Of a stretch of 64,000 bases of DNA, positions 8,090 to 39,668 are shown piece after piece. Numbering within the stretch: the stretch's first letter is position 1; every line of letters starts with the position of its first letter. Made by a program: the position numbers and the translations under genes. The notes beneath the pieces were generated by a model that worked only from the letters and a program-made list of their open reading frames with translations, did not search any database and had not been told where the DNA came from. This DNA is from Streptococcus oralis. Lineage in GTDB: Bacteria > Bacillota > Bacilli > Lactobacillales > Streptococcaceae. The stretch covers positions 1,771,501 to 1,835,500 of the forward strand of contig NZ_CP046524.1 of the NCBI RefSeq assembly GCF_021497945.1. The letters run 5' to 3'.

Positions 8090-9778
8090 ATGAGTACAAA
8101 AAAACTGATTGCTAGTGAATTGGCTAGCGTCATTGATAGCCTAGATCAAGAGGCTATTTTAAATTTACTAGAACAACCAAAAAACTCTGACATGGGAGAT
8201 ATCGCTTTTCCTGCTTTCTCACTTGCAAAAGTCGAACGCAAAGCCCCTCAAATAATTGCTGCTGAAATCGCTGAAAAAATCAACAGCCAAGCCTTTGAAA
8301 AAGTTGTTGCAACTGGTCCTTACGTCAACTTCTTCCTTGATAAATCTGCCATTTCTGGAGCAGTTATCAAAGAGATCATCGAAAAAGGATCTGACTACGC
8401 TCAACAAACGGAAGGCCAAGAGCAAAATATCACGATTGACCTATCAAGTCCAAACATCGCAAAACCTTTCTCAGTAGGTCACTTACGTTCAACTGTTATC
8501 GGAGATGCTCTTTCTAATATCTTTAAGAAAATGGGCTACAACACTATTAAAATCAACCACCTTGGAGACTGGGGTAAACAGTTTGGTCTTCTCATGGTTG
8601 CTTATAAAAAATGGGGAAGTAAGGAAGCCGTAGAAGCTAATCCAATTGACGAATTGTTAAAATTGTACGTTCGCATCAATGCTGAAATCGAAGATGACCC
8701 AGCTCTTGATGATGAAGGACGTCTCTGGTTTAAAAAATTGGAAGATGGCGATCCAGAAGCAACTCAACTTTGGCAGTGGTTCCGTGATGAAAGTTTGGTT
8801 GAGTTCAACCGCATTTACAAACTGTTGAATGTTGAATTTGATAGCTTAAACGGGGAGGCCTTCTATAATGACAAGATGGACGAAGCCGTGCAAATCCTTG
8901 AAGAAAAAGGTTTGCTAGAGGAGTCACGCGGAGCTAGCATTGTCAACCTCGATGATGTTGAACTTCCACCTGCTATGATTAAGAAATCTGACGGTGCAAC
9001 CCTCTACATCACACGTGACATTGCGACAGCTATCTACCGTGCACGTACTTACAATTTTGTTAAAAATGTCTACGCAGTTGGTCAAGAACAGTCTAACCAC
9101 TTTAAACAGTTAAAAGCCGTCTTGAAAAAAATGGGATTTGACTGGAGCGATGATATGATTCACGTAGACTTCGGTCTGGTAACCAAAAATCGTCAAAAGC
9201 TCTCTACTCGTAAGGGAAATATCATCCTGCTCGAACCTACCCTTCAGGAAGCTATCAGTCGTGCTAAAGCACAAATTGAAGCGAAAAATCCTGATCTCGA
9301 AAACAAGGAACAGGTTGCTCAAGCTGTCGGAGTGGGAGCTGTTAAATTCTACGACCTCAAGACTGACCGCCGAAATGGTTACGACTTTGACCTCGAAGCT
9401 ATGGTTTCCTTTGAAGGAGAGACTGGTCCATACATCCAATACGCTTACGCTCGTATTCAGTCTCTACTTAGAAAAGCAGGCTTCCAACCAAATGCTCAAG
9501 CAAGTTACAGTCTAAATGATGCTGAAAGCTGGGAAATTATCAAACTTCTCCAAGACTTTGCCCGTGTCATCAAACGCGCATCTGTTAACTATGATCCATC
9601 GCTCATTGCCAAGTATGCAATCAGCTTGGCTCAAGCCTTCAATAAATACTATGCCCACACTCGTATCTTGGATGAAAGTCCAGAGCGCGACAGTCGCCTA
9701 GCCCTCAGCTACGCAACAGCTGTTGTTCTCAAAGAAGCCCTTCGTTTGCTTGGAGTAGAAGCACCAGAGAAGATGTGA
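8090..9778 (+). CDS. argS: Arginyl-tRNA synthetase
   Basis: Charges tRNA-Arg. 562 residues, a normal length. The class I HIGH signature appears as SVGHLRST after SSPNIAKPF (about residue 123), and the KMSKS equivalent is QKLSTRKGN near 365, the degenerate form common in Gram-positive ArgRS. The C-terminal anticodon-binding domain ends in [13 protein letters not shown], the usual terminal motif. AAAAGGAG precedes the ATG at 8090. It is divergent from argR. The next 500 bp carry no gene but hold an array of palindromes that starts eight bases after the stop codon. Confidence 0.98.
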
Positions 9779-9785
9779 TTCAGTA

Positions 9786-10172
9786 CTAACAATTGGAACT
9801 AAAGTTCCTAATTGTTAGACGCTAGCCGCTTTTATGCGGACTAGCTAACTGCTTCACTAGTCATGACCCCTAAATATAATCGATTTAGAGGTCATGACGT
9901 CGTAACTATGGTGATTTGGCTTGGCGCTTCACTAGTTCTGGGACATAAATATTATCGATTTATGTCCCAGAACGTCGTAACCCGTACGAATTGCCTAAAC
10001 GCTTTACCAGTCTTTCGATAGAAATGTTTTCGATGTCTACTGAAAGACGTCGTAATCTTCAAGTTACTTACTTGCAAAGCGATCTAAATAACTAACGCCA
10101 AATCCTATACGGACTTTTGCTTGGCGCTTTACTAGTCTTCATTAGAATTGGACAGACTTTTCAGTTAAAGGT
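9786..10172. repeat. Tandem palindrome array in 75-nt register
   Basis: No protein gene is visible here. Three 37-nt palindromes start exactly 75 bases apart (9861, 9936, 10011). Each is preceded by GCTTYACYAG and followed by CGTCGTAAY, and each has TCGAT at the same place in its loop (9880, 9955, 10030). The stem arms differ in sequence but keep pairing: TCATGACC/GGTCATGA, then a perfect 15-bp stem beginning TTCTGGGACAT, then TCTTTC/GAAAGA extended with few mismatches. A related 33-nt palindrome (CTAACAATT/AATTGTTAG) starts at 9786, again 75 bases earlier, and a second small hairpin lies at 9821-9845. A fourth constant flank GCTTTACTAG recurs at 10126-10135 before a degenerate hairpin. The preserved pairing with changed sequence argues for a selected structure. 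Confidence 0.8.
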
Positions 10173-10229
10173 CAAGACCGTCTTGTTTTATCTGTCGGAT
10201 ACCTGTTCTGCTAGTCTAATCACTTAGTT

Positions 10230-10256
10230 GAAAAGCGAAAATTTCTTTCGCTTTTC
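10230..10256 (+). terminator. Hairpin closing the argS downstream region
   Basis: GAAAAGCGAAA (10230-10240) pairs perfectly with TTTCGCTTTTC (10246-10256). The T-run is broken (CTTTTCTTATG). It probably ends the argS transcript including the palindrome array. Confidence 0.65.
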
Positions 10257-10295
10257 TTATGTCATCAACTTTTTTATCAAATCGGGAGAGATTTT

Positions 10296-10541
10296 ATGAG
10301 CCAGTATGCTTATATCTTAGTTCTTATCAGCCTTGTCGTTCTTTTTCTCATCAATAAATACGAAAAAGAAAAACTTCGACAACTCCTTCAGGAACAGCTT
10401 CTGAGGGACGAAGCTTTCAAAACAGACATACGCGAACGGATCCAAACAACGGAAAATATCAATGATGTGATTGACTACATCAATAAAGGTTACCGTTTAG
10501 GACTCCTGCTTTCTAAGGAAATCACTGAGCAACTGAAATAA
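10296..10541 (+). CDS. Small single-span membrane protein, unknown function
   Basis: 81 residues with one N-terminal transmembrane helix (YAYILVLISLVVLFLIN, residues 4-20) followed by a charged, probably helical cytoplasmic part (KYEKEKLRQLLQEQLLRD) and a C-terminal NDVIDYINKGYRLGLLLSKE segment. CGGGAGAG precedes the ATG at 10296. It stands alone between two terminators. I do not recognise a named function; the protein looks like a conserved streptococcal hypothetical. The intact frame, clear ribosome site and dedicated terminator make it a real gene. Confidence 0.8.
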   Translation: MSQYAYILVLISLVVLFLINKYEKEKLRQLLQEQLLRDEAFKTDIRERIQTTENINDVIDYINKGYRLGLLLSKEITEQLK

Positions 10542-39528: not shown

Positions 39529-39668
39529 TTTTGTCCTTTCCCTTAAACGACACAAAAACAGTCAAAACTCGTAAGAAGTGCAGGACAAAAAAGCCTGCAA
39601 CATCCATGAGCTTTGACCATCATTTCTATTGCTTTTATTATTGTAGCAAATTGAGAAAATTTGTCAAT

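Follow-up and report, generated by a model that had tools for sequence, protein, structure and literature searches.

The window (the whole 64,000-nt stretch of Streptococcus oralis DNA that was analyzed) carries argS at 8090..9778 on the + strand. Behind it lies an array of palindromic units, bounded by an 81-aa ORF (10296..10541, + strand) that has no Pfam or NCBIfam match. The array opens with the argS stop codon itself, TGA at 9776-9778. The first full unit (9776..9905, + strand; 120.4 bits, E 2e-28 with model R2, described below) comprises the stop codon and a helix termed P1, hairpins B and C, the linker CTTCACTA, hairpin A1, GTCG, and TAA. In the predicted fold, CAGT at 9781..9784 is the 5' strand of P1 and pairs with ACTG at 9848-9851, enclosing hairpin B (9786..9818) and hairpin C (9821..9845). 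The conserved linker occupies 9852..9859, and its TCA at 9854-9856 is able to pair with the TGA stop codon. Hairpin A1 follows at 9860..9898. Two shortened units come next on the same strand, at 9912..9980 (58.0 bits with R2; hairpin A2, stem 9935-9973) and 9987..10055 (36.9 bits; hairpin A3, stem 10010-10048), each with GTCG-TAA after the hairpin. The array ends in a + strand P1-B-C module without hairpin A (10056..10135; R2 match at 10062-10121, 24.7 bits), which closes on CTTTACTAG.

A first-pass annotation of this DNA had described three palindromes in a 75-nt register behind argS, and this is borne out, with stems starting at 9860, 9935, and 10010 and loops of 7 nt. Complementarity is 94% in stem 1 (9860-9875/9883-9898), 100% over 16 bp in stem 2 (9935-9950/9958-9973), and 81% in stem 3 (10010-10025/10033-10048). 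These palindromes are hairpin A, one module of a larger unit. The 75-nt period holds as a spacing and fails as the full unit: it is a shortened form that lacks most of B and C, and longer units measure 124-126 nt. The palindrome at 9786, which had been taken for a relative of the other three, is a distinct module, hairpin B, and the helix that encloses it together with hairpin C starts at the argS stop codon. The flank at 10126, previously read as preceding a degenerate copy, is the end of the last P1-B-C module, 125 nt past the previous flank. The proposed closing hairpin is present in the fold at 10231..10257 (+ strand), where it is terminator-like by eye only, and it is absent from the list of the terminator scan. 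The fold of the array region beat 100 of 100 shuffled sequences on either strand (z -8.9 and -9.6).

Structure and covariation of the unit

The complete unit is about 129 nt long and consists of helix P1, hairpin B, hairpin C, CTTCACTA, hairpin A (16-bp stem, 7-nt loop), GTCG, and TAA again. Arrays close after P1' and CTTCACTA without a hairpin A, giving the form (P1BC-A)n-P1BC. The same anatomy is found at argS, prfC, metK, purM, glyQ, nrdE, pheS, and other loci. Units contain invariant unpaired bases, and the consensus at the foot of hairpin A is GTCG, usually (C/T)GTCG followed by (T/C)AA. Many units have CGTC at this foot and others have TGTC; GTAG is not the tag.

Covariation supports a fold in both alignments that were examined, and it is silent on whether the folded molecule is DNA or RNA. 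In hairpin A the arms are of several types, and the flanks and loop stay the same. Its alignment used 38 of the 55 distinct 55-nt units, omitting three chimeras and near-duplicates. In this alignment 88.2% of cells were paired and 11 of the 16 pairs had changes on both sides. The number of pairs with such changes was not above shuffles (11 against 10.8), but the cells with both sides changed were (162 against 55), as was the covariation score. For the full unit, 14 sequences from argS, prfC, metK, purM, glyQ, and dispersed loci were aligned; 33 of 40 pairs were changed on both sides, 87.7% of cells were paired, and the covariation score was 0.697 compared with 0.218 in shuffles. At argS, the two strands of P1 change in concert (CAGT/ACTG, CGTT/AACG, CGCC/GGCG). 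Model R2 was built on the 14-unit alignment, and six of its 14 seed rows take their first columns from stop codons. The TAA of the model is therefore anchored by its seed; the coincidence with the ends of unrelated genes is not.

Mismatches in hairpin A are strongly asymmetric. A selected RNA of the + strand would be expected to tolerate G.U over A.C, and hairpin A shows the reverse (A.C 76, G.T 26), even though the + strand model behind alignment A3 favors G.U on that strand. The foot of hairpin A (P0, TTAC/GTAA) has the same bias (A.C 81, G.T 18). Pyrimidine-pyrimidine mismatches outnumber purine-purine mismatches 194 to 12; most of them fall in positions 3-5 of the stem, arms of unrelated sequence have them too, and on the opposite strand they are G.A. 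Many of these counts are not independent; over 45 arm clusters, the pyrimidine to purine comparison is 53 to 2, and the A.C to G.T bias is weaker (18 to 9). P1, B, and C together have no such bias (A.C 54, G.T 55), which argues against mere mutational skew in A. Judging from the mismatches in hairpin A, folding probably takes place on the strand antisense to the gene.

Distribution in Streptococcus

The units form a genus-wide structured repeat family that is apparently uncatalogued. Model R2, applied to 12 candidates in each genome, detected a unit at E 1e-3 or better in 260 of 284 Streptococcus genomes. An order-wide sample of 395 genomes gave matches in three of 80 genera, one being Streptococcus (two of the 79 other genera). 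The 216 of 284 genomes matched by model R1, which represents hairpin A alone, were not taken as prevalence because many of the matches were weak. One genome of another genus has a lone strong match (G573:C1:135908-136034, E 5.8e-17), and weaker matches occur in G579 and G422. With regard to a phage origin, pattern matches in viral contigs numbered 5 and 3.

Among the genomes scanned more deeply, the number of copies ranges from 10 in the genome of the window to 113 in G069 and 125 in G224. Elsewhere in the window's own genome, copies follow prfC, one follows a lactose PTS gene, four 126-nt units precede metK, and one unit precedes purM. A search with the two-flank pattern matched the argS array alone in this genome. 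In the species-representative collection it gave 30 records, of which 27 were from Streptococcus and three were unrelated (L033 was left out as it is from the same genome as L001). All 27 Streptococcus matches adjoin argS, the 81-aa downstream gene, or both. The reversed control pattern had no match in the 41 genomes searched. The register and the stem covariation, whose absence elsewhere would have counted against the first-pass annotation, recur in many genomes. The element is not particular to argS.

No unit in the window or in 16 loci matched an Rfam family at the gathering score, so the possibility that the units belong to a known family finds no support there. At E values up to 5, Rfam gave weak miRNA and symR matches far below gathering. 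The families that did match, elsewhere in these sequences, were two sRNAs. Spd-sr37 is in the window at 39565-39631 on the minus strand, and SpR19 is at 340-460 of L184, about 900 nt before a glyQ unit.

Position relative to genes

Many units begin exactly where a gene ends. Among the best 150 of 153 matches (86 loci), 45 units had a same-strand ORF of at least 70 codons ending between 60 nt before and 29 nt after the unit start, and in 26 of these 45 the first base of the unit was the first base of the stop codon. The 26 stop codons belong to 12 gene families: nrdE (6), pheS (6), dnaK (2), ftsX (2), corA (2), obgE (2), and single cases of prfC, pdhA, parE, groEL, sufB, and a glnQ-like gene. 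Names were assigned by NCBIfam for representatives and by identical C-termini for the remainder. Arrays at argS (26 loci) and prfC (11 loci) start on the stop codon likewise. The type of unit at the end of a given gene often varies from species to species. Units are present at five of 30 nrdE loci, three of which have long head-to-tail arrays before nrdF that also include a further unit family. Orthologous sites common to several species, as at nrdE and pheS, may mean a function in cis, which counts against the mobile-element reading given below.

Some units lie instead at gene starts. At glyQ and purM, the start region of the gene, about 40-46 nt, is duplicated and the unit lies between the copies; relatives without a unit have a single copy. 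At metK, partial copies of the leader stand on either side of the array, which lies at GTAACTC, a sequence that is present once in array-free relatives. Units were found at three of 18 purM, five of 19 metK, and three of 16 glyQ loci examined. A general target-site duplication is not supported: with mismatched flanks as controls, 12 of 114 clusters and 10 of 903 controls were above the 99th percentile of the controls, five of the 12 are at glyQ or purM starts, and the other seven look like neighboring repeats. In three loci (L176, L184, and L188), the duplicated glyQ start gives rise to a leader ORF (MSKKLTFH...PKG...) whose end lies past hairpin B. Before purM, L126 (genome G009) has a short GTCGCAATCTTTTTC remnant that is like the right end of a unit with the rest missing. 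Another purM locus, L123 (genome G001), has what we take to be a BOX element inserted in hairpin A of the unit.

The strongest rival to a DNA element is a cis-acting structured RNA in the mRNA that tunes 3' end stability or expression, a reading that we consider possible though doubtful. A terminating ribosome would cover the triplet with which the fold begins and would keep P1 from forming until termination is over, and the exact stop-codon position and co-orientation with genes are consistent with this. In the best 150 of 153 matches, the stop triplet also covaries with its partner (TAA:TTA 43, TAA:TCA 4, TGA:TCA 5, TGA:TTA 1; Fisher p 2.5e-4, relatedness ignored), but the argS loci have TCA as the partner with both stops, TAA (19) and TGA (7). 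The invariant unpaired bases and the leader ORF copies at glyQ and purM, where a short ORF runs into the element, argue for an RNA. Against it, the mismatches in hairpin A are those tolerated on the opposite strand, chimeric A hairpins persist, and many copies in the high-copy genomes are not co-oriented. Of 105 clusters, 37 share the orientation of the genes on both sides; another 23 run against both neighbors, all of them in G224, G069, G067, or G573.

Transcription across the argS interval has been reported in S. pneumoniae TIGR4, where SN26 is a 97-nt + strand transcript between SP2078 and SP2079, the argS-SP2079 interval (Kumar et al., 2010; PMC2887815). A structured RNA in the argS 3' UTR was one of three options offered by the first-pass annotation; SN26 is in its favor, and it is retained here as part of the cis-acting RNA reading. 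SN26 could also point to several trans-acting sRNAs clustered 3' of argS, another of those options, for which nothing specific was found. It has no predicted promoter or terminator in Table 1 of the same paper (PMC2887815), and units lie behind many unrelated genes; we regard such a cluster as very improbable. The D39 sRNA srf-25 was considered as a possible match and set aside, as its position relative to argS was not established.

Array turnover and mosaics

Array composition changes at argS, prfC, and nrdE. In the 25 complete loci, the interval between argS and the 81-aa ORF is modular, differs in composition, and measures 206 to 753 nt. Three of the 55 distinct A hairpins are chimeric, with arms of different types, and A hairpins reassort against B/C modules at CTTCACTA. 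Two lineages of argS, about 95-100% and 76-80% identical to that of the window, both bear arrays (L008-L037); partial argS loci reach up to 83% identity with the window argS. In L027, argS matched in three pieces and may be interrupted or frameshifted in the assembly.

Integron-like cassettes moved by a site-specific recombinase with TAA as the crossover point would account for some of these features. Head-to-tail units at nrdE are delimited by GTCG|TAA with alternating unit families, and argS and prfC arrays share first modules of the same types. Reassortment of A against B/C at CTTCACTA means that exchange is not limited to TAA, and we think a recombinase of this kind improbable. Integron attC arrays have similar head-to-tail cassettes and variable folded arms, but the present units have no ORFs and no attC boxes recognized by eye. 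In L370-L373 (nrdE-nrdF), the second unit family starts with TAAGATGTGAGGGCGTT, contains AAAATAGGAAATACC, and is interleaved with the main units. Sequence resembling this second family flanks units in L308, L335, and L337.

Shuffling at short repeats, and the resemblance of 75-nt units to deletions of a 125-nt unit, would also be expected of an old passive tandem repeat, functionless and immobile, in which template-switch (quasipalindrome) correction keeps the arms complementary. This reading is hard to credit given the invariant unpaired bases, the scatter of loci, and the two genomes with more than 110 copies each.

Interpretation and comparison with known elements

The units may be REP/BIME-like non-autonomous mobile palindromic DNA elements with GTAA/TTAC borders that have spread through Streptococcus, which is the reading we prefer and hold at roughly even confidence. 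A family of recombination or protein-binding DNA sites was the third option of the first-pass annotation, and it fits best in view of the scattered copies, the shuffling of arrays, and the better pairing of hairpin A on the antisense strand. Each unit would be P1-(B,C)-CTTAC, then hairpin A and GTCG-TAA. Successive borders, TAA/GTAA and TTA(C), would alternate in orientation and produce (P1BC-A)n-P1BC arrays. Units would occupy GTAA/TAA sites, and a gene's stop codon could be the left border, which would leave the protein intact. Arrays would lengthen, shorten, and swap modules via recombination or template switching at the short borders. We infer that units can move, probably through a single-stranded form of the antisense DNA and a nuclease that reads the borders. 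A clean empty site at a stop codon was not seen.

IS200/IS605 elements are a natural comparison for such borders. IS608 targets TTAC, and as in that group the border tetranucleotides TTAC/GTAA are able to pair at the foot of a hairpin. By analogy, this pairing may play the part that target/guide pairing has in IS200/IS605 and REP elements. An IS200/RAYT mobilizer was rejected as a simple answer: the transposase domain PF01797 was found in six of 12 element-bearing and six of 16 element-free Streptococcus genomes, and no unit was present in any of 20 PF01797 transposase loci examined. Thus the units differ from IS200/IS605 in having no correlation with a Y1 transposase, and they also lack its lagging-strand logic. 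IS608-like elements are described as using the lagging-strand template (PMC6006769); for a gene co-directional with replication, the antisense strand is the leading-strand template, which goes against that logic. A further reading, which we consider unlikely, is a new class of bacterial DNA element with stop codons as its docking sites. The stop would be one strand of the closing helix, the antisense strand would fold as ssDNA, and GTAA/TTAC borders would chain harmless cassette arrays behind essential genes, through an enzyme other than the known REP or IS200 transposases.

If the preferred reading is true, a genus of medical and industrial importance has, in most of its examined species and in S. 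pneumoniae among them, a repeat family without an Rfam entry. It would account for the highly variable tracts behind argS and prfC, and these would be fast-evolving typing loci. It would also raise the questions of which protein reads hairpins bordered by GTAA/TTAC and why starts fall on stop codons.

A description of the family was not found in the open-access literature searched. BOX, RUP, and SPRITE repeats of S. pneumoniae, of which BOX is modular, are likewise short structured intergenic repeats (Croucher et al., 2011; PMC3049150). Their modules differ, and the 18-bp duplex followed by a U-rich tract that is described for SPRITE is absent here; that paper mentions neither argS nor arginyl. 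A table in Weinberg et al. (2010; PMC2864571) has lines for "sanguinis-hairpin" and "ScRE" in Streptococcus, with no Rfam accession and no detail in the main text. Either may be an earlier partial sighting of the family, as far as those table lines tell.

REP, BIME, and REPIN sequences are dispersed intergenic palindromes with a conserved unpaired tag at the stem foot, of which GTCG-TAA may be the counterpart here, and they form mosaic clusters that are often behind genes; GTAG and CGTC repeats have been described among them (Di Nocera et al., 2013; PMC3733652). CGTC repeats, as described there, are 20-40 bp with 8-9 bp stems and 4-5 nt loops, in contrast to three hairpins plus P1 in about 129 nt with a 16-bp stem and 7-nt loop. 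GTAG-class REPs have a linked RAYT/Y1 transposase, whereas no linked RAYT-type gene was found here. Unlike REP/BIME, the present units are mostly in head-to-tail arrays with starts on stop codons, and this docking is their unusual trait among palindromic mosaic repeats. Inverted pairs, as in REPINs, occur in two high-copy genomes as unit(+)-spacer-unit(-) composites with TGATACTTTC ends (five copies aligned, one of them poorly). In L274, L277, L278, and L289, from G224 and G069, the composite is about 460 nt long, with TGATACTTTC/GAAAGTATCA ends and two opposed units.
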